This document shows, one piece after another, positions 1,667 through 20,221 of a stretch of 64,000 bases of DNA; positions within the stretch are counted from its first letter, which is position 1, and the number at the start of each line of letters is the position of its first letter. The stretch lies in the NCBI RefSeq assembly GCF_900156525.1, contig NZ_FTPS01000001.1, forward strand, positions 1,240,001 to 1,304,000. Reading direction: 5' to 3'. The position numbers and the translations under genes are program-made. The DNA is from Pontibaca methylaminivorans. GTDB taxonomy: Bacteria > Pseudomonadota > Alphaproteobacteria > Rhodobacterales > Rhodobacteraceae. The notes under the pieces are model-generated. The model worked only from the letters and a program-made list of their open reading frames with translations. It did not search any database and had not been told where the DNA came from.

Positions 1667-2326
1667 ATGATAGAGTTTGAAAACGTCAGCAAATCGTTCT
1701 GGACCGGAACGCGCCACAAGGTGATCCTTGACCGCGTGTCGTTCCGCGTCGAACTCGGCAATTCGCTGGGCATCCTCGCGCCGAACGGGACCGGCAAGAC
1801 CACCCTCATCAACATGATGGCCGGACTCGAAAAGCCTGACGAGGGCGAAATCCGGCGTAGCTGCAACGTGTCGTTTCCGCTCGGCTTCCGCGGCGGGGTG
1901 GTGACCCGCATCTCGGCGGTGGAAAACAGCCGCTATATCGCGCGGCTTTACGGGCTCGACCCCGATTATGTCGAAGCCTACTGCCGCTGGCTCTGCAACC
2001 TCGACGAATATTTCGATCAGCCGGTGGGCACTTATTCCTCGGGGATGCGGGCGCGGTTTTCCTTTGCGCTGATGCTTGCGCTCGATTTCGACATCTACTT
2101 GATCGACGAGGGCATGCCGGGCACCACCGACGCCGAATTCAACCGCAAGGCATCCGCCATCCTCGCGGAACGGCTGCGCACCACCACCATCGTGATCGTC
2201 TCGCACCAGGCCGAGATACTGAAGAAATACGCCCGCTCCGCCGCCGTGCTGATGGATGGGCAGTTGCACATGTTCGACACTCTGGAAGAGGCGAAACGGC
2301 TTTATGACTATGAAACCCAGGGTTAG
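1667..2326 (+). CDS. kpsT: capsular polysaccharide export ABC ATPase (KpsT/CtrD type)
   Basis: 219 residues, the usual size of KpsT/BexA/CtrD ATPases that power capsule export across the inner membrane. Walker A is APNGTGKTT (38-46), the ABC signature is YSSGMRAR, and Walker B is IYLIDEG followed by MPGTTDAEF, a form typical of polysaccharide exporters. The ATG at 1667 is chosen because MIEFENVSKSF starts the first beta strand of the fold; a 30-bp longer reading is possible. Its stop overlaps the start of the KpsE-like gene by 23 bp. No KpsM-type permease is adjacent, which is unusual because the ATPase needs one; it must be encoded elsewhere. Confidence 0.85.
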   Translation: MIEFENVSKSFWTGTRHKVILDRVSFRVELGNSLGILAPNGTGKTTLINMMAGLEKPDEGEIRRSCNVSFPLGFRGGVVTRISAVENSRYIARLYGLDPDYVEAYCRWLCNLDEYFDQPVGTYSSGMRARFSFALMLALDFDIYLIDEGMPGTTDAEFNRKASAILAERLRTTTIVIVSHQAEILKKYARSAAVLMDGQLHMFDTLEEAKRLYDYETQG

Positions 2327-3869
2327 AAAATTCCGCATCCGGCGCAGCGGCACCGGCGCGGACACGGCCACCCCGTCGGAAGCCGCCGAAAGCGCCGCCG
2401 CCGTCCTGGCCGAGATCGAGGCGCTGCGCAACGAGGGGCTGACCACCCGGCAATTGCGCATGGCGCGGCGGGTGGCCGAGCGGCACGGGATCACGGCGGC
2501 CTCGGACCTGGATGCGGTGCGGCTTCTGCGCCGTCAGGGCATCGACCCCTTCGCCCAGTCGAACATGCTGGAACTGATCGCGCCGGGGCGCGGCGGCGAT
2601 GGTCACGACGACAGGCCGTCGGGGGCCGGCCTTCCGGTCCGCAGCGGGGGCCATGATGCCGGGGCGCTCGCCCGGCGGGAGCGCGGCCCCGAACCGTCCG
2701 CCGGGGATGGCTCGCCTGCGGCCCGGATCCGCGAAATCTCGGAAATCCAGCGCGACATCGCCCGCCGGCGCCAGCGGCGCCTGCGCGCGCTCGCCGCCCG
2801 GCTCGGGGTCTTCGTCGCCCTGCCGACCTTTCTTGTCGGGCTTTATTTCCATGTTTTCGCGACCCCGATGTATGCGACGAAATCCGAATTCCTGATCCTT
2901 CAGGCGGACAATGCCGGCGGCGAAGGCATCGGCGGGCTGCTGCGCGGCACGCAATTCGCGACCAGCGCCGATTCGATCGCGGTGCAATCCTACCTGCAAT
3001 CCAAGGATGCGATGCTGCGGCTCGACCGCGATGCGGGGTTCAAGGCGCATTTTGCGCAGGAACAGGTCGATCCGGTGCAGCGGCTTGGTGCGGGCGCCTC
3101 GAACGAAGAGGCCTACCGGCTGTATTCCCGCTACGTGAAGATCGGCTTCGACCCCACCGAGGGCGTGATCCGCATGGAGGTCACCGCCGCCGACCCTGCC
3201 GCCAGCACGGATTTCTCGGAGCGGCTGATTTCCTATGCCGAGGAACGCGTGAACGCCATGAGCCAGCAGAAGCGGGGCGACCAGATGCAGGATGCGCTGG
3301 ACAGCTTCGAACAGGCACAGGCCGAGCGGCGCACCGCGCAGGAAGAACTGGTCCGGTTGCAGATGGAGGGCTCGATCCTCGACCCCGAGGGGGTGATCAC
3401 CGGGCTGCGCGCCCAGATCAACGAGGTCGAGACCATGCTGCGCGAACGCGAACTTCAGGTGGCCTCGCTGCTTGACAATCCACGTCCGAACGAGGCCCGG
3501 CTCGCCGGCGCGCAGGGCGACGTGCGCCGCCTGCGCGAGACGCTCGAACAGTTGAACGCGCGGATGGTGGACGCGAGCAAGGGCGAAAACTCCCTCGCGC
3601 AGCTCACGGTGCGGCTGCAGATGGCGCAGGCCGATCTTGCCGCCCGCGACATGGTGCTGCAATCGGCGCTGCAGCAGGTCGAACAGACCCGGATGGAAGC
3701 CAACCGGCAGGTGCGCTATCTGACCACCTCGGTGCGTCCGGTGCCAAGCGAAGATCCGACCTATCCGCGCAAGTTCGAAGGTACTATACTGGCATTTCTC
3801 ATTTTTGCCGGGATTTATCTGATGATCTCGCTGACCGCTTCCATCCTGCGCGAACAGGTGACCTCTTGA
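2304..3869 (+). CDS. kpsE: capsule export inner-membrane/periplasmic adaptor (KpsE/BexC/CtrB type)
   Basis: 521 residues if the ATG at 2304 is used (a second ATG lies at 2310). Residues 1 to about 165 are a charged Ala/Arg-rich cytoplasmic extension. A first membrane segment (FVALPTFLVGLYFHVF) follows at about 170-190, then a long periplasmic part with coiled-coil character (EQAQAERRTAQEELVRLQME region) and a C-terminal membrane segment (ILAFLIFAGIYLMISLTA). This two-helix hairpin plan is that of KpsE-type polysaccharide co-polymerase/export proteins, which link the ABC transporter to the outer-membrane channel. It overlaps the ATPase upstream and shares its TGA with the TTG start of kdsA, indicating one operon. 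The N-terminal extension is longer than in enterobacterial KpsE. Confidence 0.82.
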   Translation: MTMKPRVRKFRIRRSGTGADTATPSEAAESAAAVLAEIEALRNEGLTTRQLRMARRVAERHGITAASDLDAVRLLRRQGIDPFAQSNMLELIAPGRGGDGHDDRPSGAGLPVRSGGHDAGALARRERGPEPSAGDGSPAARIREISEIQRDIARRRQRRLRALAARLGVFVALPTFLVGLYFHVFATPMYATKSEFLILQADNAGGEGIGGLLRGTQFATSADSIAVQSYLQSKDAMLRLDRDAGFKAHFAQEQVDPVQRLGAGASNEEAYRLYSRYVKIGFDPTEGVIRMEVTAADPAASTDFSERLISYAEERVNAMSQQKRGDQMQDALDSFEQAQAERRTAQEELVRLQMEGSILDPEGVITGLRAQINEVETMLRERELQVASLLDNPRPNEARLAGAQGDVRRLRETLEQLNARMVDASKGENSLAQLTVRLQMAQADLAARDMVLQSALQQVEQTRMEANRQVRYLTTSVRPVPSEDPTYPRKFEGTILAFLIFAGIYLMISLTASILREQVTS

Positions 3870-4699
3870 TTCAAGTCGAACTCGACGGGCTGCGCATCGG
3901 CAACGACCAGCCCCTGACCATCATCGCCGGCCCCTGCCAGCTGGAAAGCGCCGCCCATGCCCGGATGATCGCCGAACGGCTCCGGGATGCCTGCGCGGCG
4001 GCCGGGGCGCAGTTCATCTTCAAGGCCAGTTTCGACAAGGCGAACCGCACCTCGCTCAGCGGCCGGCGCGGTCCGGGGATGGAGGCGGGGCTCGAGATGC
4101 TGGCCGAGGTGAAGCGCGCCGTCGGCGTGCCGGTGCTGACCGATGTGCATGACATCGCCCAATGCGCGCCCGTGGCGGCGGTCTGCGACGTGCTGCAGAT
4201 CCCGGCGCTGCTCTGCCGTCAGACCGACCTGATCCTTGCCGCCGCCGAAACCGGCGCCGCGATCAACGTCAAGAAGGGCCAGTTCCTCGCGCCCTGGGAC
4301 ATGGCGAATGTGGTCGCCAAGATCGAAAGCGCCGGCAACCGCCGCATCCTGCTGACCGAACGCGGCACGACGTTCGGCTATAACGCCCTTGTCGCCGACA
4401 TGCGCGCCCTGCCGCAGATGGCGCAGACCGGCTATCCGGTGGTGATGGACGCCACCCATTCGGTGCAGCAGCCGGCGGCGCTTGGCGGATCGACCGGCGG
4501 GCAGCGGGAATTCGCCCCGGTCATGGCCCGCGCCGCCGTGGCGGTGGGCGTGGCGGCGGTGTTCATGGAAACGCATGAGGATCCCGACAATGCGCCCTCG
4601 GACGGGCCGAACATGATTCATCTCGACCGGATGCCGGGGCTGATCCGCACCCTGATGAAATTCGACCAGCTCGCCAAGGCCGAGCCGATCCCGTTCTGA
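3866..4699 (+). CDS. kdsA: 3-deoxy-8-phosphooctulonate synthase
   Basis: 277 residues. KdsA condenses phosphoenolpyruvate with arabinose 5-phosphate to give Kdo 8-phosphate, the precursor of Kdo in lipid A core and in capsule linkers. The diagnostic motifs are present: AGPCQLES near the N-terminus, FKASFDKANRTS, INVKKGQFLAPWDM, ERGTTFGYN and the C-terminal HEDPDNAPSDGPNM. The start is a TTG overlapping the kpsE stop (TTGA), so translation is probably coupled. Its position directly behind capsule export genes suggests dedicated Kdo supply for a poly-Kdo-linked capsule; whether this is the only kdsA copy cannot be told from the window. Confidence 0.95.
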   Translation: MIQVELDGLRIGNDQPLTIIAGPCQLESAAHARMIAERLRDACAAAGAQFIFKASFDKANRTSLSGRRGPGMEAGLEMLAEVKRAVGVPVLTDVHDIAQCAPVAAVCDVLQIPALLCRQTDLILAAAETGAAINVKKGQFLAPWDMANVVAKIESAGNRRILLTERGTTFGYNALVADMRALPQMAQTGYPVVMDATHSVQQPAALGGSTGGQREFAPVMARAAVAVGVAAVFMETHEDPDNAPSDGPNMIHLDRMPGLIRTLMKFDQLAKAEPIPF

Positions 4700-4717
4700 A
4701 TCCCGTCAGGTCACTCC

Positions 4718-6214
4718 ATGCAGAAACCCGCCGCCACCGTCATGCCCAACACCTGGAGCTTTCTGCGCGATCCGATGATCGCGCCGACCGGGTTCCGCGA
4801 ATATGATGCGCGCTGGAAATACCCCGATGAAATCAACCTGCCCGGCGTGACGGCGCTCGGGCTCGGGCTCGGTACGCAGATGCACCGCCGGGGCATCCGC
4901 CCGGAAATCGCCGTCGGAAACGATTATCGCGACTATTCGCTGGCGATCAAGCAGGCGCTGGTTCTCGGGCTGGTGCAGGCCGGGGTGCAGGTGCGCGACA
5001 TCGGCCCGGCGCTGAGCCCCATGGCCTATTTCGCGCAGTTCCACCTTGATGTGCCGGCGGTCGCCATGGTCACGGCAAGCCACAACCCGAACGGCTGGAC
5101 CGGGGTCAAGATGGGGTTCGACCGTCCCCTGACCCACGGCCCCGAGGACATGGCGGAATTGCGCGGCATCGTGCTGGGCGGCGAGGGACAGCCGCGCGAT
5201 GGCGGCGGCTGGAACTTCACCGACGGCCTGCGCGAGGCCTATCTTGACGATCTGGCCGGCGACTTCCGCATGAGCCGGCGGCTGCGCGTGGTCTGCGCCA
5301 CCGGCAACGGCACGGCGGGCGCCTTTGCCCCAGAGCTGCTGGAGCGGATCGGCGTCGAGGTCGTGCCAAGCCATAACCGCCCCGATTACACGTTCCCCCA
5401 TTACAACCCGAACCCCGAGGCGCTCGAAATGCTGCGCGACATGGCGCAATCGGTGCACGATTCAGGCGCGGATTTCGCGCTCGGCTTCGACGGTGACGGC
5501 GACCGCTGCGGCGTGGTCGATGACGAGGGCGAGGAAATCTTTGCCGACAAGATGGGCGTGATCCTTGCCCGCGACCTGATCCGGCTGCACCCGAATGCGA
5601 CCTTCGTCGCCGATGTGAAATCGACCGGGCTTTTCGCCAGCGACCCCGAACTTCAGGCCCATGGCGCCCAAACTGATTACTGGAAAACCGGCCATTCCCA
5701 CATGAAACGGCGGGTCAGGGAGATCGGCGCGCTGGCGGGGTTCGAGAAATCGGGGCATTACTTCTTTGCCGAGCCGCTGGGGCGCGGCTATGACTGCGGG
5801 CTGCGCGTCGCGGTCGAGATCTGCAAGCTGATGGACCGCAACCCCGGCAAATCCATGTCCGATCTGCGCCGTGCGCTGCCGCGCACCTGGTCCACCCCCA
5901 CCATGTCGCCATATTGCCCGGACACCGAGAAATACGCGGTGCTCGGGCGGCTGGTGGACCGGCTGACCGCGCTGGCCGACAGCGGCGGCACGCTGGCCGG
6001 GCGCCGGATCGACCAGGTCATCACCGTGAACGGGGCGCGGGTCATGCTCGAGAACGGCGGCTGGGGGCTGGTGCGCGCATCATCCAACACGCCCAATCTG
6101 GTGGTGGTCTGCGAAAGCCCCGAAAGCGAGCACGAGATGCGCGCGATCTTTGCCGATCTCGACGCGATCATCCGCACCGAACCATTGGTCGGGGATTACG
6201 ACCAGACCATCTGA
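4718..6214 (+). CDS. phosphomannomutase/phosphoglucomutase
   Basis: 498 residues, alpha-D-phosphohexomutase family. The phosphoserine loop TASHNPNGWTG has the catalytic Ser at 121, the metal loop is FDGDGDRCG, the sugar-binding loop is the GFEKSGHYFF region, and the C-terminal phosphate loop is RASSNTPNLVV. The enzyme interconverts hexose 6- and 1-phosphates (mannose and/or glucose) and so feeds nucleotide-sugar synthesis. It follows kdsA by 18 bp with the same orientation, consistent with a capsule or exopolysaccharide precursor role. Sugar specificity cannot be assigned by eye, so no gene symbol is given. Confidence 0.9.
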   Translation: MQKPAATVMPNTWSFLRDPMIAPTGFREYDARWKYPDEINLPGVTALGLGLGTQMHRRGIRPEIAVGNDYRDYSLAIKQALVLGLVQAGVQVRDIGPALSPMAYFAQFHLDVPAVAMVTASHNPNGWTGVKMGFDRPLTHGPEDMAELRGIVLGGEGQPRDGGGWNFTDGLREAYLDDLAGDFRMSRRLRVVCATGNGTAGAFAPELLERIGVEVVPSHNRPDYTFPHYNPNPEALEMLRDMAQSVHDSGADFALGFDGDGDRCGVVDDEGEEIFADKMGVILARDLIRLHPNATFVADVKSTGLFASDPELQAHGAQTDYWKTGHSHMKRRVREIGALAGFEKSGHYFFAEPLGRGYDCGLRVAVEICKLMDRNPGKSMSDLRRALPRTWSTPTMSPYCPDTEKYAVLGRLVDRLTALADSGGTLAGRRIDQVITVNGARVMLENGGWGLVRASSNTPNLVVVCESPESEHEMRAIFADLDAIIRTEPLVGDYDQTI

Positions 6215-8383: not shown

Positions 8384-9598
8384 CTAGTTCCGCGCGAACC
8401 ATGGCGGCAGTTCGAAAGACGAATCCCGATACAAGTCCGGAGCGACCAGCGCCGCAGGGTCTTCAGGGCCTCGCAACTGATAGAACAGATGCGGCAGGCC
8501 GAGCGACGCATCTAGCGTCGCGTCCGGATAGGGTACTGCTGCCTGCCATTGCGGATGATAGCGAATTGTCCCCGAGACGCTGCGATAAGGTATGTCACAC
8601 AGAAGGTGTGCGATCTTGCGATTCTGTTCCGTACCGCCCGGCCCGGCCGTACCTCCGGCGACTGCTGCGGCGATAGCATAATGTTGTACGGCGTTATAGG
8701 TCTGACAACCGACCTCGGGGGTCGACGCTGCTCCGAACCGTGCTTTGTACCGACGGAAAAATGCCCAGCCGATGTCGTCCCGCGGCAAACCGATGACGGT
8801 TCCGACGATCACACCGCGGCCCTTTTCGCCGACCATCTCGGAAAAGCTGCGGTGCAATGCACCATACTGCAGATAAAGCAGAACGGGCAGCGGATCCTCA
8901 GAGAATTGCAGGTGGAATCGCGCAAGATCGCCCGCATGGAAATGCGTCAGGGCGAGCACCGAAGGGTCGGTCGAGCGGATTTCCTCCAGCAATGGTCTCC
9001 AGTCGGTTGGCAGGCGGCGAAGGATCCGAGGCGGGAAAACGGGACGCCAGCCGAATTGATGTGCTGCCTGATGCATCGCATTGGCGATGACGATGCTGTA
9101 AGGCTTGGGCCCTGAAACGATCGCGATGCGGTCGCTTGGCGGCTGCCACTGACCGCTGTCGCGTAGCCAGGACAGGAACTTGATGAAGCCCTGTCCGTAC
9201 CAGTATTCCGCGGGATCGGCCATGAAGCAGCCAAAGTAACGTGCGGGATCGCTCATTACCGTGTCATGGTGCTGGAGCAGCGTGTTGCAGTGAATATAGA
9301 TGATACCGGCATCGGCGATCGGTTCGTATTCCGAATTCTGCGGGCCGATGTTGTAGCCGGCAAAGATCGCATGCACGCCTTGCGAGATCAGGTAGCGGGT
9401 GGCACGGATCGTCTCGTGCGCGGTCTGGAGTCCCGTGTCCAGGAATATCGGTTCGAGCCGCTGCCCGAGGATACCGCCGCGTTCGTTGATCTCCTCGCAG
9501 GCGAGCAGGACACCATTGCGGAACTCGCGCCCGTCCGAGGCCGCAGAGCCGGTTAGCGGCACGATCGCGCCGATAGGTATCGGCCGTTCGTCCATCAT
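8384..9598 (-). CDS. periplasmic-binding-protein-fold amide sensor, no signal peptide (AmiC-like)
   Basis: 404 residues of the type 1 (Leu/Ile/Val, urea/short-chain amide) binding-protein fold. The protein begins MMDERPIPIGAIVPLTGSAA, that is, at the first beta strand, with no signal peptide or membrane segment, so it should stay in the cytoplasm. Its closest relative in the window is the exported binding protein at 12222-13550: shared elements include EEINERGGILGQ versus EQINAAGGILGR, DPARY versus DPVKY, and LLYLQYG versus LVYLQYG. Its start overlaps the kinase stop by 4 bp (ATGA), so it is the last gene of a three-gene operon with the kinase and response regulator. By analogy with Pseudomonas AmiC, an intracellular amide sensor of this fold, I infer that it reports imported amide to the kinase. 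The ligand is not proven. Confidence 0.75.
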   Translation of the reverse strand: MMDERPIPIGAIVPLTGSAASDGREFRNGVLLACEEINERGGILGQRLEPIFLDTGLQTAHETIRATRYLISQGVHAIFAGYNIGPQNSEYEPIADAGIIYIHCNTLLQHHDTVMSDPARYFGCFMADPAEYWYGQGFIKFLSWLRDSGQWQPPSDRIAIVSGPKPYSIVIANAMHQAAHQFGWRPVFPPRILRRLPTDWRPLLEEIRSTDPSVLALTHFHAGDLARFHLQFSEDPLPVLLYLQYGALHRSFSEMVGEKGRGVIVGTVIGLPRDDIGWAFFRRYKARFGAASTPEVGCQTYNAVQHYAIAAAVAGGTAGPGGTEQNRKIAHLLCDIPYRSVSGTIRYHPQWQAAVPYPDATLDASLGLPHLFYQLRGPEDPAALVAPDLYRDSSFELPPWFARN

Positions 9599-11118
9599 GA
9601 CAATTCCGGCACCAGTTCCGGCTCAAACAGGATGTTGTGCATGATCACGCGCAGGCTTGGTGGACTGACGGGCTTGATTAGCACCGGAAACCCCTGTGCG
9701 CGGATCGAGGCGATCAGCTCCGGTCCGGTATCGGCGGTGATCACGATCGCGGGACAGGGCAGTTCCAGCGTGTCGTTGATCTGGTGCACGATGTCGGTGC
9801 CGCGTACCCCGCTGCGCAGGCGGAAATCGGTGATGATGATGTCCGGCGGCTGGGGAAGGGCAGCGAGCGCAGCCGGAACATCGTCGAACCGTTCGAGGAT
9901 CTGCACCTCGATCCCCCAACGTTGCAGCAGCGCGATCACCGCGTCGCGCAACATGCGATCATCCTCCAGCACGAGACAGCGCAACCCTGCGAATTCACCT
10001 CCGAGGCGCTCGTTGATCTCGACCTCGCCCATTGACGAATGCCAGACATCGCCGAGCGGGACTTCTATCGCGAAGGTCGATCCCCTGCCTGGCGCCGACC
10101 GCAACGAGACCCGGTGGCCCAGCACTTCGGCCAGCCGGCGCGAGATGTTCAACCCGAGGCCAAGACTGTGGCGCGCCGGTTGTTGTTCTGCAACACGGAA
10201 GAATTCCTCAAACACCTTTTCCTGATGCTCCGGTTCGATGCCGATGCCGGTGTCATGCACCTCGATCCGCAGGCTCCGGCCATGTCGGCGGCAGCCGATC
10301 AGAACACGGCCAAACTCGGTGTAACGGATGGCATTACCGACAAAGTTCGAAAGGATCCGTTCCAGCAGGGCGCGGTCGGTCCGGATGGCGGCCCGTGACT
10401 GCGCGATACGCAGGTCGAGCCCCTTGTCTCGCGCCGCCTGTCCAAACTGGATGCGCAATCGTTCGAACACGGTCGAAAGCTGGAAGGTCTGGACGCGGGG
10501 CTCGACCTTGCCGGCGTCGAGTTGACCGATGTTCAGGAGGGCGCCGAGCAAATCCTCTATGATCGAGACGGAAACATCCATCGCGTGCAGCGTCTCCTGA
10601 CGCTCTTGCTCGGTTTCGGCCTCCATACAGGAATAGATCAGGATCTTCAGCGAGGCGAGCGGCTGGCGCAGATCGTGATTGGCCGCCCGCAGGAATCGCG
10701 ATTTGCTCTGGTCGGCATGGGTGGCCTTGTCGCGGGCGCGCTCCAGGCCGCGCTGCGCGCGCCAGGCCTCGGTGATGTCCGAAAACAGGCTGACCCGTCC
10801 CCCGCCCGGCATGGGCCAGCTCTCGGCCTGAAGCACCTGCCCATCAGTGAAGACGAGCGCGCATCCTTCCAGATCAAGCAGGCCGCTTTGCGGCAGTTGC
10901 ACCAGCAGACCGGACGTTGCGAGTGCGGAAATGAAATCCACCTGCGTGAGCGGCTGCGCAACGTGTTCCGTCACTCTGCCAAATCGGCACTGAAATGCCG
11001 GATTGCCATGAAGAAGACGGGCCTGCGCATCCCAGACCGCCACCGCACAGCCGATCGCGTCCAGAGTCGCACGATCATCCGCTCCGCCGCCCTTATGTTG
11101 CGGCGTGCACGACGTCAT
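9595..11118 (-). CDS. soluble hybrid histidine kinase (PAS-HisKA-HATPase-REC)
   Basis: 507 residues, no membrane helix. The order is: a PAS-like sensor (about 15-115, AVAVWDAQARLLHGNPAFQ), a HisKA domain with catalytic His148 (FLRAANHDLRQPLASL), an ATPase domain with N box NFVGNAIRYTEFG, G1 box DTGIGI and G2 SLGLGLN, then a C-terminal receiver with phospho-acceptor Asp431 (IIITDFRL) and Lys482 (LIKP). A hybrid kinase of this type autophosphorylates and passes phosphate through its own receiver or directly to a partner regulator, here most simply the LuxR-type regulator encoded just upstream, whose stop overlaps this start by 4 bp. Being soluble, it must sense an internal cue; the signal-less binding protein encoded next is the obvious partner. 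No HPt domain is seen. Confidence 0.85.
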   Translation of the reverse strand: MTSCTPQHKGGGADDRATLDAIGCAVAVWDAQARLLHGNPAFQCRFGRVTEHVAQPLTQVDFISALATSGLLVQLPQSGLLDLEGCALVFTDGQVLQAESWPMPGGGRVSLFSDITEAWRAQRGLERARDKATHADQSKSRFLRAANHDLRQPLASLKILIYSCMEAETEQERQETLHAMDVSVSIIEDLLGALLNIGQLDAGKVEPRVQTFQLSTVFERLRIQFGQAARDKGLDLRIAQSRAAIRTDRALLERILSNFVGNAIRYTEFGRVLIGCRRHGRSLRIEVHDTGIGIEPEHQEKVFEEFFRVAEQQPARHSLGLGLNISRRLAEVLGHRVSLRSAPGRGSTFAIEVPLGDVWHSSMGEVEINERLGGEFAGLRCLVLEDDRMLRDAVIALLQRWGIEVQILERFDDVPAALAALPQPPDIIITDFRLRSGVRGTDIVHQINDTLELPCPAIVITADTGPELIASIRAQGFPVLIKPVSPPSLRVIMHNILFEPELVPELS

Positions 11119-11849
11119 TTGACTGCGAGCGCCTGTTGCAGCTGTGTGGAATTTTCGACCGCCAGCCGGATCACTGCCTCGCGCGTAGGCGTGGCCAGTT
11201 TCTTCATCGCGTTGCCCAGATGCACACGGACCGTCTGCCGGCTGATATCGAGCATATCGGCGATGTCTTGCAACGCCTCGCCCCGGCCGAGCGCCGCCAG
11301 AACTTCTGTTTCTCGGCGGGTCAGGAGCCTCAGATCCGCCTGGGGTTCGACCCGAGCCGGCTGCCGGGTATCGGGGCGCTCCGCCTCGGGAGTTACATGC
11401 GCACGGGCGAGAATGTCGCGTGGAAAGCTGACCTCCCCCGCGATCACCCGGCTGAGTGCCTGCTTGATCTGGGCTGCGCCCGCCGATTTGGGGATATAAC
11501 CCACCACCCCGTGCCGGATCGCCTCCAGCACGTGCTCCGGATCCTCGTAGACCGAAATCACCACCACCGGGATCGCCGGAAAACGGCTGCGGAGTTCTTG
11601 CAATCCGGGAAAGGCCGCTGCCCCCGGCATCATCAGGTCGATCACCACAAGCCCGATCGTCGGATTGCGCTCCAGCACTGCCAGCGCCTCATCGAAACTC
11701 GATGCTTCCTCGATCTCGTTCCAGTTACGCAGGGTTCGCGCAACATGTTTGAGCGACTCTCGCACGACCCAGTGATCATCGGCGATTAAGATCGAAACCG
11801 GCGTTCCGATTCCGGAGGTTTCCACCTCCATGGACAGGGCAGAGCTCAT
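11115..11849 (-). CDS. LuxR/NarL-type response regulator
   Basis: 244 residues. N-terminal receiver: acidic pair D24-D25 (ILIADDHW), phospho-acceptor D71 (VVIDLMMPG), conserved Lys in GYIPKSAGA. C-terminal LuxR-type helix-turn-helix beginning LLTRRETEVLAALGRG with recognition segment DISRQTVRVHLGNAMKKL. First gene of the minus-strand operon with the hybrid kinase and the binding-protein sensor, and divergent from the amide transport and hydrolase operon across a 372-bp AT-rich gap. I infer that it activates the divergent operon when its ligand is present. A candidate inverted repeat lies within the divergent region. Several starts are possible near the N-terminus (MSSALSMEVE). Confidence 0.88.
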   Translation of the reverse strand: MSSALSMEVETSGIGTPVSILIADDHWVVRESLKHVARTLRNWNEIEEASSFDEALAVLERNPTIGLVVIDLMMPGAAAFPGLQELRSRFPAIPVVVISVYEDPEHVLEAIRHGVVGYIPKSAGAAQIKQALSRVIAGEVSFPRDILARAHVTPEAERPDTRQPARVEPQADLRLLTRRETEVLAALGRGEALQDIADMLDISRQTVRVHLGNAMKKLATPTREAVIRLAVENSTQLQQALAVK

Positions 11850-12221: not shown

Positions 12222-13550
12222 ATGATCAAGGACAAGGCTCCTGGCCTGCGCCGGCCGCGACGCTATACCCGGCGCACCACCCTCCAGATCGGTGTCGCCG
12301 GAGCAGCGATGACGCTTGCCGCACCGGCGATTTCGCAAGGGCGCGCCGACAAGATCCTCATCGGTGTGCCGTCCTCGCTCTCGACGCCCTACGGCGTGGC
12401 GGATGACAGCGATCACCTTAACGGCACCACCTTTGCAGTCGAGCAGATCAACGCTGCAGGCGGAATTCTGGGCCGCGAGATTGAACTGTTCGTGCCGGAT
12501 GTCGACAAGCTGTCACCCGAAAGCGCACGCCAGGCAATCGCCGCCTGTATCGACAAGAAGGTGATGGCGATTTCCAATTCGTTCCTGTTTGCACCGATCC
12601 CGGCGCTGGACGAATCCGCAAAGTACAAATGCCCTTATGTGAACGGCAATGCGCAGCGGCTGCCGACAGAAGCCTATCGCGCCGATCCGGTGAAATACAG
12701 CCATGTGCTGCAAACCTGCCCGGCCGAAGTCAACTATGGCTGGACCTATCCTCTGTGGCTGAAAAGGATGGAAGAATCTGGCGCCTGGAAGCCCAAGAAC
12801 CGCAAGGTCCACGTTGTGGCGGAGCAGGTTGGCTACTGCCAGACCATCTTGCGCGCGCTGCGCGAGGCGATGCCAAGATACGATTTCGAACTCACCGAGG
12901 TGACCGATATCCAGTATCCGGTGAATGATTGGACACCGGTGATCCAGCGGCTGAAAGATGTCGATGCCGGCGCAATCATGATCGACCACTGGGTGGCAGC
13001 CGAATATGCGGCTTTCTGCAAGCAGTTCCGCGCCAACCCGGTGCCCGATTCACTGGTCTATCTGCAATACGGACCATCGCAACCGGAATTCCTGGAACTG
13101 GGCGGCCGCGCGACGGAAGGGTTCTGCTGGTCGACGACGGTCGGCCTTTATGGTGATGCACGCGGACAGGAATACCGGAAAGCCTATCTGGATCGCTTCC
13201 CCGAATTCGAGGGCAATATGGGGCTCGTCTATACCGGTAACGGTTACGACATCGTCCAGTATCTGAAGCTCGCCTGGGAGGCGACAGGCGCACCGGAGGA
13301 TTTCGCCGCCAATGTGGACTGGATTCGCAACAATCCCTATCGCGGCGTTTGCGGCATGATGAACATGCGGAACGATCTGCAGGAGGCATTGCATTATCCT
13401 GACAACGGCTTCGGCAATCAGGCGACCGAACTCGAGCAGGGCATGGCACAGCTCTTCGTGCAGGTGCAGGATGGCGGCCACAAGATCATCTGGCCAAACG
13501 AGATCGCCGAATCCACCCTGAAACCCGCACCGTGGTGGAGCCGAGCATGA
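12222..13550 (+). CDS. amide ABC transporter substrate-binding protein, Tat-type signal
   Basis: 442 residues from the ATG at 12222. The N-terminus carries a twin-arginine pattern (YTRRTTLQIGVAG) and then a hydrophobic stretch ending near PAISQG, so export by Tat is likely. The mature part is a type 1 binding protein of the urea/short-chain amide group: EQINAAGGILGREIELF, the VNYGWTYPLW segment, LVYLQYG, and GLVYTGNGYD. It should capture the amide in the periplasm for the permeases encoded downstream. Its stop overlaps the ATPase start (ATGA). It is a family relative of the cytoplasmic sensor at 8384-9598, which implies that both recognise the same class of ligand. Binding to dimethylformamide is inferred from the downstream hydrolase. 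Confidence 0.82.
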   Translation: MIKDKAPGLRRPRRYTRRTTLQIGVAGAAMTLAAPAISQGRADKILIGVPSSLSTPYGVADDSDHLNGTTFAVEQINAAGGILGREIELFVPDVDKLSPESARQAIAACIDKKVMAISNSFLFAPIPALDESAKYKCPYVNGNAQRLPTEAYRADPVKYSHVLQTCPAEVNYGWTYPLWLKRMEESGAWKPKNRKVHVVAEQVGYCQTILRALREAMPRYDFELTEVTDIQYPVNDWTPVIQRLKDVDAGAIMIDHWVAAEYAAFCKQFRANPVPDSLVYLQYGPSQPEFLELGGRATEGFCWSTTVGLYGDARGQEYRKAYLDRFPEFEGNMGLVYTGNGYDIVQYLKLAWEATGAPEDFAANVDWIRNNPYRGVCGMMNMRNDLQEALHYPDNGFGNQATELEQGMAQLFVQVQDGGHKIIWPNEIAESTLKPAPWWSRA

Positions 13551-14275
13551 CCGGAGCGAAAGCTGCTCCGATCTTCTGCGCCGAGAATCTCTCGCTCGAC
13601 CTGGGGGGACGGGAGGTTCTGCGCAGGATCGGGTTCAAACTCGGAGCGGGCGAGGTACTTGGTATTATCGGGCCCAATGGGGCAGGCAAGACCAGCCTGC
13701 TCGAAATCCTCTCGGGCCGCTATCAGCCAAAGACTGGCAAAGTGGTCTACAAGGGTCGCGACATTACCAGGTTGCCGCTGTTCGAGCGTGCGCGGATGGG
13801 CCTCGGGCGGACATATCAAACCCCGATCGTCTGTGAAGACCTGACCGTGGGCGAGACATTCAAGGCCGCACGCCAGGCCTATAAACCCTATCTGACGCGG
13901 TTCGATGCGGAGTATGGCGCGAATCTCGTGCAATTCCGCACGCCGCAGGACCGGCCGAACAGTCAGCTCAAGACCTTTGAGCGGCGCAAGCTGTTGCTGG
14001 CCAACCTGCTGATGCGACGGCCCGAGGTGCTGCTGATGGACGAGCCCGCAGCTGGATTGATCAATGCCGAGATCGACGAGATCGACCAGATTCTGCGGAT
14101 GTTATCGAAGGAAATGAACATGGCGGTGCTGATCGTCGAGCACCGGATGGAGTTGCTCGACTCCATCGCGGACAGGGTGATCGTGATGGATGCGGGTGAG
14201 ATCATCGCAGAGGGCAAACTCGCCGATATCATCGACAGCCCGGCGGTTCGCGCCGCCTATTTCGAGGCGCATTAG
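13547..14275 (+). CDS. LivG-type ABC ATPase with degenerate signature motif
   Basis: 242 residues. Walker A is GPNGAGKTS, Walker B is VLLMDEPAAGL and the switch His is in IVEHRME, as expected for a LivG-like ATPase of branched-chain amino acid or urea/amide importers. Where other family members carry an LSxGxxR-like signature, this protein reads QLKTFERRK, so the ABC signature appears lost. Because each nucleotide site needs the signature of the partner subunit, one of the two composite sites with the LivF-type partner may be catalytically weak. The ATG at 13547 overlaps the upstream stop; a GTG at 13532 is an alternative. Confidence 0.85.
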   Translation: MTGAKAAPIFCAENLSLDLGGREVLRRIGFKLGAGEVLGIIGPNGAGKTSLLEILSGRYQPKTGKVVYKGRDITRLPLFERARMGLGRTYQTPIVCEDLTVGETFKAARQAYKPYLTRFDAEYGANLVQFRTPQDRPNSQLKTFERRKLLLANLLMRRPEVLLMDEPAAGLINAEIDEIDQILRMLSKEMNMAVLIVEHRMELLDSIADRVIVMDAGEIIAEGKLADIIDSPAVRAAYFEAH

Positions 14276-14288
14276 GCGCCTGAGGAAC

Positions 14289-14996
14289 ATGGAAATGACA
14301 GATGTTTTGCGAATAGACGGCCTGTCGGCCGGCTACGGGCCGCTGCGCGTGATTCATGACCTCGACCTGGTGATCAAGCCTGGTGAGAGACTCGGCATTG
14401 TCGGACTGAACGGTCATGGCAAGACCACGCTGATCTATGCGATCGCGGGACTGACGGGCTGGCAGCGCGGCTCGATCCTGCTCAACGGCACCCAGATCGG
14501 CCGCATACGCAGCCAGGGGCCCGGGCGTTACACCCACCAGATCGTGCGCAGGGGCCTGGCGCTGATGCCGCAGGGGGATGAGATATTCACCGGCCTGACG
14601 GTCGAAGAGCATCTCGATTCCGGTGCGTTTACTCATGACGCCTGGCGCGACCGCAGGGTCCGCAAGGAACGTGTGCTCGACCTGTTCGAGCCACTGCGCA
14701 AGCTGATGAAAACCCCTGTCGGCCGGTTGTCGGGCGGCGAGCGGCGGATGGTTTCGCTCGGGCGCGGGCTGATGACGGATGCGAAGCTTTACCTTGTCGA
14801 TGAGCCTTCGCTCGGCCTCGCACCGAAGATCGGACAGAGCGTGATGGAAGCGCTCTTCGCGCTCGATCTCAAGGACAGCGCCATGTTCATCGCAGAGCAG
14901 AACGTTGCCCTGCTGGAAGGACGGGTTGACCGCGTCATCGGCATGCATGCGGGAAAACTCAAGGGCGAGGCTTCGGCCGGACTTAGCTTTAACTGA
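14289..14996 (+). CDS. LivF-type ABC ATPase
   Basis: 235 residues. Walker A is GLNGHGKTT, the canonical signature is RLSGGERRM, Walker B is LYLVDEPSLGLAPK, and the switch His region is replaced by AEQNVALL, as in LivF proteins. It pairs with the LivG-type ATPase to energise import through the two permeases. The start at 14289 is preceded by GAGGAAC, giving a reasonable ribosome-binding site; a second ATG lies at 14295. The gene follows the LivG-type stop by 13 bp. Unlike its partner it has an intact signature, which makes the pair asymmetric. Confidence 0.88.
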   Translation: MEMTDVLRIDGLSAGYGPLRVIHDLDLVIKPGERLGIVGLNGHGKTTLIYAIAGLTGWQRGSILLNGTQIGRIRSQGPGRYTHQIVRRGLALMPQGDEIFTGLTVEEHLDSGAFTHDAWRDRRVRKERVLDLFEPLRKLMKTPVGRLSGGERRMVSLGRGLMTDAKLYLVDEPSLGLAPKIGQSVMEALFALDLKDSAMFIAEQNVALLEGRVDRVIGMHAGKLKGEASAGLSFN

Positions 14997-15006
14997 AGGG
15001 ACGGAC

Positions 15007-15888
15007 ATGGAACTGAGCTTCATCCTGACCAACGCAATCGTAGTGGCCTCGATCTACGGTTTGATAGCCGTCGCGGTCTCGATCACCTGGTCGAGCCTGG
15101 GGTTGATCAATCTCGGCTATGGCTTCGTCTTTTCCTTCGCCGGCTATTGTGCATGGCTGACGGCGCAGAACGTCTCGGATTGGTCGCCCGTCGTTGCGGC
15201 AGCGGGAATCCTCGGCGGCGCTCTTGGGGGGATCCTGATCTGCCTCCTGGTCTTCATCCCGCTGCACGACAAGCCGAATTTCACCACGCGCGGGATGATC
15301 GGCACCTTGGCGATCTCGCTTATCGGTTCGCAGGCACTGCTAATGCAGTTCGGCCCGCGGGCGAAATCCCTGCCCGAGATCTTCGGTTTCTGGCAGGTCG
15401 ATATCGGTGGCGTCATTCTGACGTCGGACAAGATCGGCATCGTGATCTGCTCGATCCTGATGCTGGGCTTCGTCGTGATGTGGATGCGCGGATCACGGCG
15501 CGGACTGGAGATCCGGGCGATGATGATGAACCCGCACGCGGCCTCGATCGTCGGCATCGGCATCCGCTCGACCGGGATCTATGTCATGGCGATGACGGGA
15601 GCGATGGCGGGGCTTGCCGCGGTGCTCCTGTCGCAGACCTATTACATTGCCCCCTTCAGTGGACTGACGCCACTGATCAAGGGCGTTTCGATCGCGCTGT
15701 GCGGCGGCCTTGGCTCGGTGCAGGGCGCGGTGATCGCCGCCGTCCTCCTGGGCCTGACCGAGGCCACGACCTCGCGCTATCTCGGCGGACAATATGTCCT
15801 CATTACCCAGTTCCTCGTCATCATCCTGATCCTGATCATCCGGCCGCGCGGCATCTCGGGACTGCTGGACAAGGCTCGTGAACAATGA
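15007..15888 (+). CDS. LivH-type amide ABC transporter permease
   Basis: 293 residues with about eight hydrophobic segments from ILTNAIVVASIYGLIAVAVS to the C-terminal YVLITQFLVIILILIIRP. The cytoplasmic loop with RGLEIRAMMMNPHAAS and the GLGSVQGAVIAAVLLGL region are typical of LivH-type inner-membrane permeases. The ATG at 15007 has an AAGGGA ribosome-binding site seven bases upstream. The last four bases overlap the start of the second permease (ATGA). It should form the membrane heterodimer with the LivM-type protein. Confidence 0.88.
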   Translation: MELSFILTNAIVVASIYGLIAVAVSITWSSLGLINLGYGFVFSFAGYCAWLTAQNVSDWSPVVAAAGILGGALGGILICLLVFIPLHDKPNFTTRGMIGTLAISLIGSQALLMQFGPRAKSLPEIFGFWQVDIGGVILTSDKIGIVICSILMLGFVVMWMRGSRRGLEIRAMMMNPHAASIVGIGIRSTGIYVMAMTGAMAGLAAVLLSQTYYIAPFSGLTPLIKGVSIALCGGLGSVQGAVIAAVLLGLTEATTSRYLGGQYVLITQFLVIILILIIRPRGISGLLDKAREQ

Positions 15889-17534
15889 CCAGACCATCCC
15901 TTACCCAGATCAACTGGCACAACCCGCTTACCCCTTGGGGCGCGAAGACCACCGATATCCCCACCATTGCAGCTCCCGACTGCAGCGAGGTTTGGGATGC
16001 CAATACCGAATACAAGGCAAAGACCTACAAGGTCGGCCGGCTCAAGCACTACATCATCTGGCCAAACCACGGCCAGAAAATCTGGGACCGGCTGCGCTGG
16101 TGGCCGACGCGGCGCAACCTGCTGCACGTCAGGGGCATCTATAACCGCAAGACACTTGCAGCCGAAAAGAAGATCCTCGACCGGCGACCAGTCTACTGGG
16201 CACTGTGCCTGCTGCTGATTGCCCTGGGGCCGTTCCTGTTCCCCGGCGCCATGTACAACACGCTGCTGTCGGCGGGCACGATCTTCTGCATTTTCGCTGC
16301 CGTCAACGTCTGCTGGACGCTGATCCTCGGCACTGCCAGCATCTTCAGCCTCGCGACCTATGCCGTGGTGGGCGTCTCGGCTTTCGTCACCACCTACGCT
16401 TCGATCCAGATCGGCCTCCCCTGGTTCACCCTGCCGATTCTCGGCGGGTTCCTGGGTCTCGCCATGGGTGGGCTGATCGCAATTCCAGCACTTCGGCTTG
16501 ACGGATTCTACTATGCGCTGCTGACGCTTGGCCTGAATGAACTGTGCCGGGTGTTCTTCACCACGTCGAAACAATTCGGCTCGGCGTCGGGGGGACTTTA
16601 CGGAGCGGACTCGTTCCTGCCCGCCTCGTGGTCGCCAGCGGCACAATCACTGCTATCCTATTACAGCGCCTTCGGCTTGCTGATCGCGGCCCTGTTCCTG
16701 TTCCGCTTCATCAATGGCAAGCGGCTCGGGCGGATCCTGCGGATGGCGCCTGAAAAGCGCGAGGCATTCGCCGCTACCTGCGGAGTCGACTACCGCACGG
16801 CACGGATCACGATCTTCGTCGTCACCTCGGCAGCGCTCGGCTTCATCGGCGGCTTCTATGCCACGCTCTATGGCGGCACGGCCTTCTCGATCTTCAGCTT
16901 CGAGACCGTGCTCCTCGGTCTTGCGATGGTAACGATCGGCGGTATCGGCAAGGCGGAGGGCGCAATCCTCGGCACACTGGTCGTGACCTTCCTGGATCGG
17001 GTGCTGATCAGCTGGGGACCGACGCGGATGTTCCTGATCGGCATCATCATGCTGGCTGTCGTATTGTTCCTCAACACCGGCTACTTCGGAATCAAGAAGC
17101 AGTTCAATGCCTGGCGTGACAAGAAACGCGGCGAATGGCGCTCCATGCGCACGGAAAAGGGCGGTGAGGCCCTGCCCGAAGAAGCGACCGAGCAGGACGA
17201 CAAGGACGTGCTCTACTTCCTGCGCTTCGACAAGATGCAGCGCGATTACCTGAAGACGCTGATTTGCCCCGAAATCATCGAGGAACACCGCCGTCAGCCC
17301 CTGGGGCAGCACAGCGCGGCGCTGGAACGACTGCTGATGTATTTCCGCCGTGCACCGATGGACGACAAATACGCGCTTCACCGCAATAGCGCGACGGGCA
17401 AGTTCAAGATCATCGCCTTCTCCGGCGAACGTGGGGTTTCGCCCCGGGTCGTCGAGGATCGCGAATACGACAGCATCGGCGACGGCTACCACGCCATCTT
17501 CATGCGCCGCGTGCATGACCTGCTGGAGAGCTGA
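15885..17534 (+). CDS. LivM-type permease fused to a dimethylformamidase small-subunit-like domain
   Basis: 549 residues, far longer than usual LivM permeases (about 300-420). Residues 1-98 are a soluble N-terminal extension (rich in Trp, Lys, Arg). About 99-395 hold the permease core, starting PVYWALCLLLIALGPFLF and ending MLAVVLFLNTGYFGIKKQ. Residues 439-549 are homologous to the separate small subunit encoded next: EEHRRQP versus AEHRRNP, ERLLMYF versus GRLLFYF, DDKYALHR versus EKQYALRR, and GYHAIFMRRVHDLLE versus GFHGIFLRKIKDLME. I counted about 26 identities over 60 positions plus 8 of 15 at the end. One open frame covers all parts, with no sign of a frameshift. The tail faces the cytoplasm if the topology is as in LivM, so it could dock the hydrolase at the pore. 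The fusion is seen; the docking is inference. Confidence 0.85.
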   Translation: MTRPSLTQINWHNPLTPWGAKTTDIPTIAAPDCSEVWDANTEYKAKTYKVGRLKHYIIWPNHGQKIWDRLRWWPTRRNLLHVRGIYNRKTLAAEKKILDRRPVYWALCLLLIALGPFLFPGAMYNTLLSAGTIFCIFAAVNVCWTLILGTASIFSLATYAVVGVSAFVTTYASIQIGLPWFTLPILGGFLGLAMGGLIAIPALRLDGFYYALLTLGLNELCRVFFTTSKQFGSASGGLYGADSFLPASWSPAAQSLLSYYSAFGLLIAALFLFRFINGKRLGRILRMAPEKREAFAATCGVDYRTARITIFVVTSAALGFIGGFYATLYGGTAFSIFSFETVLLGLAMVTIGGIGKAEGAILGTLVVTFLDRVLISWGPTRMFLIGIIMLAVVLFLNTGYFGIKKQFNAWRDKKRGEWRSMRTEKGGEALPEEATEQDDKDVLYFLRFDKMQRDYLKTLICPEIIEEHRRQPLGQHSAALERLLMYFRRAPMDDKYALHRNSATGKFKIIAFSGERGVSPRVVEDREYDSIGDGYHAIFMRRVHDLLES

Positions 17535-17535
17535 T

Positions 17536-17904
17536 ATGGACGACATGCCAATCATCCCCCGCGATGCCGGGGCCGACGTACGGGCCTATTTCGACGCCAG
17601 GACGCGGCAATACCTGAAGCATGTGATCAACGATGAGGTCATCGCGGAACACCGTCGCAATCCGCATGCGCAACACCGCAGCGAACCGCTTGGTCGACTG
17701 CTGTTCTATTTCAAGAACCTTCCGATCGAGAAACAGTACGCACTGCGCCGCACGACCAGCAGCACCTTTCGCATCACCACGATTCCGCGGCCGGGCCATG
17801 CCCCCGTCGAGGTCGACCCCACCGACTTCCCCGACCAGCTTGCCGGCTTCCATGGAATATTTTTACGTAAAATCAAAGACTTGATGGAAAATAACGATGG
17901 CTGA
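17536..17904 (+). CDS. dmfA1: N,N-dimethylformamidase small subunit
   Basis: 122 residues, close to the size of known dimethylformamidase small subunits (about 130). Helical protein with EVIAEHRRNP, LGRLLFYFKN, KQYALRR and the C-terminal FHGIFLRKIKDLME. In the characterised enzyme the small subunit has no catalytic residues and packs on the large one. The ATG follows the permease stop after one base, and the end overlaps the large-subunit start by 8 bp, a layout that fits equimolar production. A paralogous domain forms the tail of the permease immediately upstream, so one is probably a duplicate of the other. Confidence 0.82.
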   Translation: MDDMPIIPRDAGADVRAYFDARTRQYLKHVINDEVIAEHRRNPHAQHRSEPLGRLLFYFKNLPIEKQYALRRTTSSTFRITTIPRPGHAPVEVDPTDFPDQLAGFHGIFLRKIKDLMENNDG

Positions 17905-20221
17905 ACAGAAGATCTTCGGATATGCTGACCGGTTCTCGGTCAAGGAAGGCGAGCAGATCAGGTTCTATGTGAACTGCGATGGCTCGGACATCGCCGAGGC
18001 TCAGCTGGTGCGCCTCATCCACGGAGACGACAACCGCGACGATGGTCCCGGCTATATCGAGGAAGAAATTGCCCATCCGGCGAACGGTTCCTGGCAGGTG
18101 AAGAAACAGTTCACGCAGCTTGGCAATTTCCTCAAGGTGGACGATCCCGAGAACCGGCTCAAGGTCGACGGTTCGCTGTCGATGATGGCCTTCATCTGGC
18201 CGTCGATGCCGCAAAATGGCGTGCGCCAGACGATCATGGGCCGCTGGGACACCTGCACCAATGAAGGTTTCGCCTTGGGCATCAACCCGGAAGGTTATTT
18301 GCAGTTCTGGGTCGGTGACGGCAAGGAGGTCGATTATGTCACCGCGGAAATGCCACTGTTGAAACATGTCTGGTATGCGGTGGGCGTGAGCTTCGACGCA
18401 GGAACTGGCACCACAACACTTTACCAGGAAAGTGTACTGAACCGCTATAATTCGCTAATCGGTCCGGCGGTGCCCTATGATTATGCCAGCCATGTTCGAA
18501 CGAGGCTGCGTTTTCGCCAGTATAACCGACCCGACATCCCCTTCCTGATCGGCGGCGCACGTGACAATCATGTCCTGCGCGGCGATTTCGTCTCGGATCT
18601 TTACGCGGGCAAGATCGACCGGCCGTTCATCACCGATGCGGTCCTGCCGCGCGAGGCGATGGACCGGGTGCGCAAGGGCGAAGCGCCCGAACCAGGCGGA
18701 CTGCTGGCCTATTGGGACACGGCGGCCGGCTATACCGAGAACGGCATCGGCCATGACGTGGCTGAAACCGGACCATGGAAGCTGCATACCCGCGGCGTGA
18801 ACCATCCGATCCGCGGCATGACGGGCTGGAACTGGAACGGCAAGAACGACTGTTTCCGTCTTGCACCTGACGAATTCGGCGGGATCGAGTTCCACCCCGA
18901 CGCAATCACCGATTGCGCTTGGGATGAGACCCGGACGATCGAGATCCCGCATGGATTGAAGAGCGGCGCCTATGCGATCCGGCTGCGTGTCGGTCCGGGC
19001 CGGGGCATTGCCGAGGAATACATCGTCTTTATCGTGCGCCCCGCGCAACCAAAGGCCAGGCTTGCCTTTCTCGTGCCGCTGGCAAGCTATCTCGCCTATG
19101 GTAACGAGACGCTCAGCTTCGACGCCCAGATCGTGCAACCGATGACGGGCCAGCCACCGATCATCTCGGATGTCGAGATCGAGACCTATGAGCATCGCGA
19201 ATACGGATTGTCGACCTACAACCATTTCGAGGACGGTGCCGGGGTCTGCTTCAGTTCGTTAAAGCGGCCGCTCATCAACATGCGGCCGAAGTTCCGCAAT
19301 TCGTGGATGGGCGTGCCCTGGCAGTTTCCGGCGGATCTGTCGATCGTCGCCTGGCTTGAGCATTTCAATTACGACTGCGACTTCATTTCGGACCTCGACG
19401 TCCATCGCGAGGGAGTCGAAGCACTGGCACCTTACAAATGCGTGCTGACCGGCACTCATCCGGAATACGTCTCGGAAAGGATGCTCGATGCCCAGGAGGA
19501 TTTCGTCGCGCAGGGCGGGCGGCTGATCTATACCGGCGGCAACGGCTATTACTGGTGCGTGAATTTCGACCCCGAGGAAGATGCCGTGATGGAGGTGCGC
19601 AAGCTCGATAGCGGAATGCGGGCCTGGGCGGCAAAACCGGGCGAGCATTATCTGCAAACCACCGGCGAAAAGAGCGGCCTTTGGCGCAACCGGGGTCGCG
19701 CGCCGCAAAAGCTGCTGGGCGTCGGAATGATCGCCGAAGGGTTCGAGACCTGCGAAGCCTATCGCCGAATGCCTGACTCCTGGCATCGCACCGTGTCCTG
19801 GATCACCGAGGGCATTGACGGCGAACTGATCGGCGACGAGGGGCTGGCCTATGGCGCCGCCGCGGGGGTGGAGGTCGATCGCTATGACCTGTCCCTAGGC
19901 ACGCCCCCACATACCAAGATCATCGCGTCATCGGGCGGGCATACCGACAACTATGTGCTTGCGACCGAAGAGATCCTCTATGCTTATGCCGGGATGGTCG
20001 GGACGCTGGATTATCGTATCCGGGCGGATATGATCTTCTACACCAGTTGGAATCACGGCGCAGTGTTCAGTACAGGCTCGATCGCCTTCGGACAGGCGCT
20101 TCCCGCGAAGGGGTTCGAGGGAACAGCCTCGAAACTGTTGCGCAATGTGGTGGATGCCTTCATCAAGGATGGCCCCCTACCCGGTCAGAAATGGTCGCTT
20201 GAAGAAAAGCAGTGGCGCTGA
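17897..20221 (+). CDS. dmfA2: N,N-dimethylformamidase large (catalytic) subunit
   Basis: 774 residues, matching the roughly 760-residue catalytic subunit of dimethylformamidase, which hydrolyses dimethylformamide to formate and dimethylamine. Plan by eye: an N-terminal beta domain (1-90), a LamG/concanavalin-like domain (about 90-270, with FALGINPEGYLQFWVGDGKE), a linker, and a large C-terminal amidotransferase-like alpha/beta domain from about 385. The studied Paracoccus enzyme binds one iron through two Tyr and a Glu. Plausible counterparts here are Tyr398 or Tyr401, Tyr441 (LSTYNHFEDG) and Glu523 (THPEYVSE), but this needs an alignment. No signal peptide, so it is cytoplasmic. Last gene of the operon. 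It could act on other N-substituted formamides or amides. Confidence 0.85.
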   Translation: MAEQKIFGYADRFSVKEGEQIRFYVNCDGSDIAEAQLVRLIHGDDNRDDGPGYIEEEIAHPANGSWQVKKQFTQLGNFLKVDDPENRLKVDGSLSMMAFIWPSMPQNGVRQTIMGRWDTCTNEGFALGINPEGYLQFWVGDGKEVDYVTAEMPLLKHVWYAVGVSFDAGTGTTTLYQESVLNRYNSLIGPAVPYDYASHVRTRLRFRQYNRPDIPFLIGGARDNHVLRGDFVSDLYAGKIDRPFITDAVLPREAMDRVRKGEAPEPGGLLAYWDTAAGYTENGIGHDVAETGPWKLHTRGVNHPIRGMTGWNWNGKNDCFRLAPDEFGGIEFHPDAITDCAWDETRTIEIPHGLKSGAYAIRLRVGPGRGIAEEYIVFIVRPAQPKARLAFLVPLASYLAYGNETLSFDAQIVQPMTGQPPIISDVEIETYEHREYGLSTYNHFEDGAGVCFSSLKRPLINMRPKFRNSWMGVPWQFPADLSIVAWLEHFNYDCDFISDLDVHREGVEALAPYKCVLTGTHPEYVSERMLDAQEDFVAQGGRLIYTGGNGYYWCVNFDPEEDAVMEVRKLDSGMRAWAAKPGEHYLQTTGEKSGLWRNRGRAPQKLLGVGMIAEGFETCEAYRRMPDSWHRTVSWITEGIDGELIGDEGLAYGAAAGVEVDRYDLSLGTPPHTKIIASSGGHTDNYVLATEEILYAYAGMVGTLDYRIRADMIFYTSWNHGAVFSTGSIAFGQALPAKGFEGTASKLLRNVVDAFIKDGPLPGQKWSLEEKQWR

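Follow-up and report, generated by a model that had tools for sequence, protein, structure and literature searches.

Within the stretch of DNA analysed here (the window, 64,000 nucleotides of the alphaproteobacterium Pontibaca methylaminivorans), the LivM-type permease of an ABC importer ends in a homologue of the small subunit of dimethylformamidase (DMFase), and the same fusion recurs in related loci from several bacterial classes. We propose, with a probability of about 0.68, that the importer anchors its own iron amidase of the DMFase family through this tail and thereby feeds methylamine metabolism. As part of the same reading, most relatives would make the small subunit in a tethered and a free form from one gene by means of an internal start, and the lineage of the window would have split these two roles over two genes and lost the start.

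The fused permease and its operon

The window holds a full branched-chain-type ABC importer operon, with a PF02653 permease pair, two ATPases and a binding protein, together with genes for the two hydrolase subunits and a divergent regulator:

8384..11849, minus strand: divergent three-gene regulator, also present beside several relatives
8384-9598, minus strand: regulator gene, binding-protein homologue without evident signal peptide
9595-11118, minus strand: regulator gene, hybrid sensor kinase
11115-11849, minus strand: regulator gene, LuxR-type response regulator
12222..13550, plus strand: importer substrate-binding protein with a twin-arginine-like signal, Peripla_BP_6 (PF13458, E 2.2e-27)
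13547..14275, plus strand: ATPase 1, LivG type (PF00005, E 7.5e-24)
14289..14996, plus strand: ATPase 2, LivF type (PF00005, E 4.7e-27)
15007..15888, plus strand: first permease, LivH type, without a tail (PF02653, E 3.4e-27)
15885..17534, plus strand: fused gene, LivM-type permease with DMFase small-subunit tail, 549 aa (open frame, PF02653, homology and model)
15885..16178, plus strand: soluble N-terminal extension, residues 1-98, kept across the family and shorter in deep branches
16185..17069, plus strand: ten-helix permease domain, residues 101-395, from the AlphaFold2 model, BtuC-like in prediction
17154..17171, plus strand: junction EKGGEA, residues 424-429, degenerate here (GAA AAG GGC GGT GAG GCC)
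17187..17531, plus strand: small-subunit tail domain, residues 435-549, matching 6lvb_B in sequence and predicted fold
17536..17904, plus strand: stand-alone small subunit, 122 aa, duplicated from the tail and evolving faster than it according to the tree and dN/dS (6lvb_B, E 2.5e-9)
17897..20221, plus strand: large catalytic subunit, 774 aa (PF20254, E 3.4e-86; residue mapping)

The sequence-only reading of this stretch had described a frame of 549 codons ending in a small-subunit homologue, a description borne out by the sequence itself, by the match of the tail to the solved DMFase small subunit (6lvb_B, phmmer E 4.7e-8) and by the predicted fold. The permease part matches PF02653 over residues 134-393 (E 1.2e-17), and none of the NCBIfam models scores above its cut-off against the fused protein. 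Alignment of the tail with the stand-alone small subunit, whose gene starts one base after the fused gene (17536), yields 41 identities over 103 positions (pairwise E 8e-23, 31 SD above shuffled tails), so that the initial count of 26 over 60 was too low. An AlphaFold2 model of the fused permease, computed from 52 related rows with the plasmid rows left out of the alignment (mean pLDDT 81.5), places ten membrane helices at residues 101-395 and, separate from the permease part, a C-terminal domain at residues 440-548 composed of four main helices and two strands, the same helix and strand composition as reported for the DMFase small subunit (PMC7686228). Foldseek returns 6lvb_B as the top match of the whole model (TM-score 0.78 on the target), and VIA-align superposes residues 435-549 onto the same chain with a Z of 11.8 (2.6 A over 113 residues). 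The highest-ranked structural matches of the permease domain are ABC importers, residues 96-396 aligning with BtuC at Z 12.5, with the caveat that Z values under 13 may be general for helical bundles.

An outward orientation of the tail had been named as a case against tethering, and the prediction points the other way. The predicted loops of the fused permease hold 17 Lys and Arg residues inside versus 1 outside, which indicates that the tail probably faces the cytoplasm, the compartment in which the large subunit, having no evident signal peptide, would also lie. The large subunit has intact iron ligands (Y401, Y441, E523) and catalytic residues (H521, N549). The N-terminal extension of 98 residues (15885-16178), which had been regarded as unusual, is real; it is conserved in relatives, with the motifs VGR, WPTRR, YNxKT and EK, and shortened in the deepest of them. 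By analogy with AmiC, the divergent regulator (8384-11849) is possibly a cytoplasmic amide sensor.

Spread of the fusion and origin of the stand-alone gene

Relatives of the fused permease were collected by scanning 84,980 species genomes with patterns taken from the membrane part only, and the best 80 of 140 relatives were kept; the scan ranked hits by the whole protein, which may have left tail-less relatives under-represented. The locus set consists of these relatives, four plasmid loci, genome L002 and the window (L001, counted once), and within it every locus with a complete C-terminus has the tail. The fusion occurs in the Alpha-, Beta- and Gammaproteobacteria, including SAR11 (Pelagibacteraceae), and in Desulfobacula, with Bradyrhizobium, Hyphomicrobium, Methylocella, Limnohabitans, Roseovarius and Methylobacillus among the other hosts, and its bearers inhabit soil, freshwater and the ocean. 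Identity across classes and phyla is 47% or higher. The genome survey suggested in the sequence-only reading thus finds the same fusion in every readable related locus, and an assembly error was rejected on the strength of this recurrence, of independently sequenced plasmids and of the window's own 2.34-Mb contig. This architecture is both old and widespread. An even sample of the class contained small subunits in 33 of 385 genomes, nearly all of them free, which sets the fused form apart as a distinct branch of a larger family. One locus labelled Bacillota (L045, Oceanobacillus sp. HTM 045) has a window-type operon with 78% identity and nests among alphaproteobacteria, reflecting either contamination or recent transfer.

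Several candidates that resembled fusions were set aside. Long open frames with small-subunit matches at four loci of the class survey (L132, L133, L135, L136) proved to be GC-rich frames around a free small gene beside a large subunit. L005 resembled a fusion by the length of its frame and is likewise a free small gene, and an "inner-membrane translocator" of Halalkalicoccus is a stand-alone small subunit under a borrowed name. L134, rejected as a transporter fusion, joins small and large subunits in one open frame of 859 aa (2250-4826, genome G338), a natural small-large fusion.

Denoting the fused permease as P, a separate small subunit as S and a large subunit as L, the operons follow four orders: P-L (51 loci), P-S-L (18 loci, the window type), P-L-S-L (10 loci, the Bradyrhizobium type) and P-L-L (1 locus). 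In 52 loci, therefore, the fused gene is directly followed by a large subunit and the operon has no separate small gene. A profile search for small subunits found the tail to be the only such domain in 17 of 26 P-L genomes, several of which are incomplete, and a second, mostly weak match in the other 9. It had been suggested that the tail could replace or mimic the small subunit, and its being the only small subunit of the operon in most relatives makes the former the better fit and the latter the poorer one. Two genomes carry two systems of differing operon type (L143 and L147 in G628; L152 and L155 in G479), which allows an internal start and a separate gene to be compared within one cell.

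Each of the 11 operons in the sample that encode two large subunits has exactly one copy in which residues of the iron site or of catalysis are lost, and this has happened in three ways. The first copy has Tyr399 changed to Phe or Leu together with His519 to Arg in Bradyrhizobium (L066, L069, L070, L071, L101), Xanthobacteraceae (L076) and Methyloligella (L083), whereas it is the second copy that is altered in L067, L078 and L081 (Tyr440 to Cys) and in Aminobacter L031 (Glu521 to Ala). Such sequences suggest that the enzyme is asymmetric, with one half active and the other not.

When 119 small-subunit domains are placed in one tree, those encoded separately in window-type operons nest inside the tails (support 100/99 for a 46-row clade that includes the SAR11 tails and 98/89 for a 36-row clade). 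Given the small number of columns, the deep forks of this tree are uncertain. This nesting implies that the stand-alone gene of the window is a duplicate of the tail and not its source. The separate small genes of P-L-S-L operons form another clade among the tails, with weaker support. All parts of the operon are under purifying selection, the tail most strongly: its pairwise dN/dS (0.02-0.13) is the lowest of the operon in nearly all pairs, the permease and the large subunit lie somewhat above it, and the free copy is the highest (0.10-0.39). Going by the tree and by these rates, it is the stand-alone gene (17536-17904) that is derived, whereas the tail is the conserved copy.

These rates also bear on two readings that deny the tail a docking role. 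According to the first, the fused protein is a precursor whose tail is cleaved, or of which only the free form matters, so that the hydrolase is soluble and the fusion serves to match expression. The nearly invariant junction peptide (EKGGE-LPEEATE) is compatible with this, as are the free small subunits that both operon types have or are predicted to have. A system relying on the free form alone, however, should be able to dispense with the tail once a separate gene exists, yet 18 of 18 window-type and 10 of 10 Bradyrhizobium-type operons keep it, under tighter constraint than the free copy, and we consider this reading unlikely. According to the second, the tail serves for sensing and not for docking, and binding of the large subunit or of the product regulates the importer. 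Transport by ABC importers is often regulated by C-terminal domains of their ATPases that lie in the cytoplasm, and the strong conservation of the tail would suit such a role; the 17 genomes in which the tail is the only small subunit would nevertheless go unexplained, the published enzyme being inactive without one. A purely sensory tail is therefore also improbable in our view, and sensing could hold in addition to docking.

A putative internal start site at the junction

In P-L operons, the junction between permease and tail typically reads GAR-AAA-GGA-GGN-GAR-ATG (Glu-Lys-Gly-Gly-Glu-Met), a Shine-Dalgarno sequence followed by a start codon exactly where the small-subunit domain begins. 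A start codon falls within a four-codon window in 51 of 51 P-L genes (48 ATG and 3 GTG or TTG), where about 5 ATG would be expected by chance. The codon GGA occurs in the Gly-Gly pair of 44 of these genes, against 13.5 expected from the glycine codons elsewhere in the same genes, and AAA encodes the junction lysine in 30 of 34 cases (6.5 expected). Relatedness is not taken into account in the simulated P values; when the set is thinned to 27 genes at 80% identity, GGA is still found 22 times (6.0 expected) and AAA in 16 of 20 cases (4.7 expected). The mRNA at the P-L junction also has less structure than elsewhere in the gene (mean z +0.88, p 5e-7).

The signal is absent from operons of the window type, in which ATG occurs at the junction in 0 of 18 cases (mostly replaced by Ala), GGA once (3.2 expected) and AAA twice (3.7 expected), and the junction is more structured than average (z -1.15). 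In the window itself, which has a separate small gene, there is no start codon at the junction and the signal is degenerate. P-L-S-L operons keep the Met in 7 of 10 cases and have neither GGA (0/10) nor AAA (0/10). Seven of seven loci from outside the first sample agree with this pattern, six P-L loci having the signal and one P-S-L locus lacking it (L151 and L152, as re-finds of L076 and L078, were left out of this count). Being present without a separate small gene and lost with one, the signal indicates that most fused genes probably give rise to both a small subunit tethered to the membrane and a free one. The losses are confined to two clades, which leaves the association with two independent events and scattered later losses as its basis.

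The purine-rich junction might alternatively act as a translation pause that aids insertion of the permease before the tail is synthesised. Slowing of ribosomes by Shine-Dalgarno-like sequences inside genes is a proposed, though debated, effect. A pause would require no start codon, and yet one is found in every P-L gene, at a position that slides by one codon between clades (EMLPEE or EVMPEE), as expected if the start codon is kept rather than a residue position. The separate small gene of L056, furthermore, begins exactly at the homologous Met (MLPEDAIEIDDKD), and the signal is gone exactly where a separate small gene exists, all of which makes a pause a very poor candidate compared with an internal start. 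The notion of a neutral read-through relic, or of an assembly artefact, draws on the location of the fused genes directly upstream of the large subunit, the usual slot of a small-subunit gene, and can be dismissed given the very low dN/dS of the tail, the conservation across classes and phyla and the many independent assemblies.

Substrate, mechanism and known systems

The genes around the operon offer an indication of the substrate. The operon's neighbours in SAR11 and in Bradyrhizobium nitroreducens encode a class-II amidotransferase, a GXGXG protein, a glutamate-synthase-type FMN protein and a type III glutamine-synthetase-like protein, a set that we take to be the make-up of the N-methylglutamate pathway (MgsABC, GmaS), which assimilates methylamine. 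Such pathway-like genes surround the SAR11 loci L057, L058, L061, L063, L072 and L095 as well as L064, and the SAR11 neighbourhoods additionally include an Amt-type transporter. The genome of the window has its own MgsABC-like cluster with a glutamine-synthetase-like gene 0.4 Mb away (L131, G000:C1:1672811-1677233), with identities of 50-56% to the three Mgs-like proteins and of 34%, less certain, for the synthetase. These neighbours point to an N-methylated amide or formamide as the most likely substrate. Homology would be a poor guide here, since the acetamiprid amidase AceAB belongs to the same enzyme family and acts on another amide (PMC11573777).

In the mechanism that we favour, the tail of the LivM-type permease would be a working small subunit of a DMFase-family iron amidase, on which the large catalytic subunit assembles at the inner membrane face; the imported substrate, probably an N-methylated amide or formamide, would be released beside the enzyme, and the amine product would enter methylamine assimilation. 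LivM is present once per importer, whereas the hydrolase dimer would need two small subunits, and it follows that the operon should also supply a free one. In most relatives this would come from internal translation initiation, one gene giving two products as in MthK; in the lineage of the window, the duplicated tail would have become a gene of its own (17536-17904) as the internal start disappeared. A tethered copy together with a free one would then dock one enzyme dimer on one importer. The published DMFase is indeed an alpha2beta2 dimer, its large subunit is inactive alone and its small subunit lines the substrate entrance (PMC7686228). With no small subunit other than the tail, a cell would hence have to assemble the active enzyme on the permease or on the fragment initiated within it. 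Tail and large subunit from one locus (Hyphomicrobium L087), translated as one chain with the stop read as Ser, gave a confident read-through model (pLDDT 86.7, pTM 0.86), its large part matching 6lvb_A with a TM-score of 0.95. The sequences show the fusion and its conservation, the intact iron site, the duplicate origin of the stand-alone gene and the start signal with its loss; from them we infer that both products are made, that the enzyme docks, and the substrate and stoichiometry given above, and they suggest that uptake and hydrolysis are physically coupled.

The individual parts of this system are of known kinds. Paracoccus DmfA1A2 (6lvb, PMC7686228) shares the large-subunit fold (about 40% identity to the large subunit of the window), the iron ligands, the catalytic His and Asn, the small-subunit fold and the small-then-large gene order, but its small subunit is a free protein and not the C-terminus of an ABC permease. 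Importers of the LivHMGF and UrtBCDE types (PF02653) likewise have a binding protein, two permeases and two ATPases per operon and a ten-helix permease domain, which in the window is a prediction. We know of no described member of these types with an enzyme subunit as its tail. The MthK potassium channel is made from one gene as a full-length protein and as a free RCK domain, from Met107, which co-assemble (PMC9440719, PMC2920069). Both there and here the cytoplasmic C-terminal domain of a membrane protein is, in our case probably, also made free from an internal start; the MthK domain serves gating, whereas here it is an enzyme subunit, the dual products are predicted and the free copy of the window has its own gene. 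Internal initiation within cas8 or cas10d similarly yields Cas11 (PMC11899642), a small subunit translated within the gene of a larger one and encoded separately in other lineages, albeit in a soluble nucleic-acid complex without a transporter. AceAB (PMC11573777), finally, is a two-subunit amidase of the DMFase family described without a link to a transporter. A literature search, outside of which most subscription papers lay, returned no description of the permease and small-subunit fusion or of its internal start, and no relevant result came from a broader search for importers fused to enzymes. The combination itself, in which an ABC permease includes an obligate subunit of an enzyme and its gene would yield a second product from within, is known to us from no other system.

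The SAR11 locus seems to appear in the FArhodopsin gene cluster under the names inner membrane translocator and N,N-dimethylformamidase, with no mention of a fusion (PMC10308929). Database names such as branched-chain amino acid permease or inner-membrane translocator hide the link to the enzyme. A broader picture, which we offer tentatively and at less than even odds, is that these importers are scaffolds for their own hydrolase, with tethered and internally started small subunits holding a dimeric iron amidase at the inner mouth so that transport and hydrolysis form one unit, with two-large operons building an asymmetric dimer of a dead and an active half, and with SAR11 channelling N-methylated amides into methylamine assimilation in the ocean. 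If the proposed mechanism is true, the permease would represent a natural transporter-enzyme unit, with an obligate enzyme subunit built into an ABC importer, and a direct test case for the coupling of uptake and breakdown. A single gene would give rise to a tethered and a free form of one subunit, with their evolutionary split into two genes still visible, and N-methylated amides would constitute an unrecognised source of organic nitrogen for abundant marine and freshwater bacteria.
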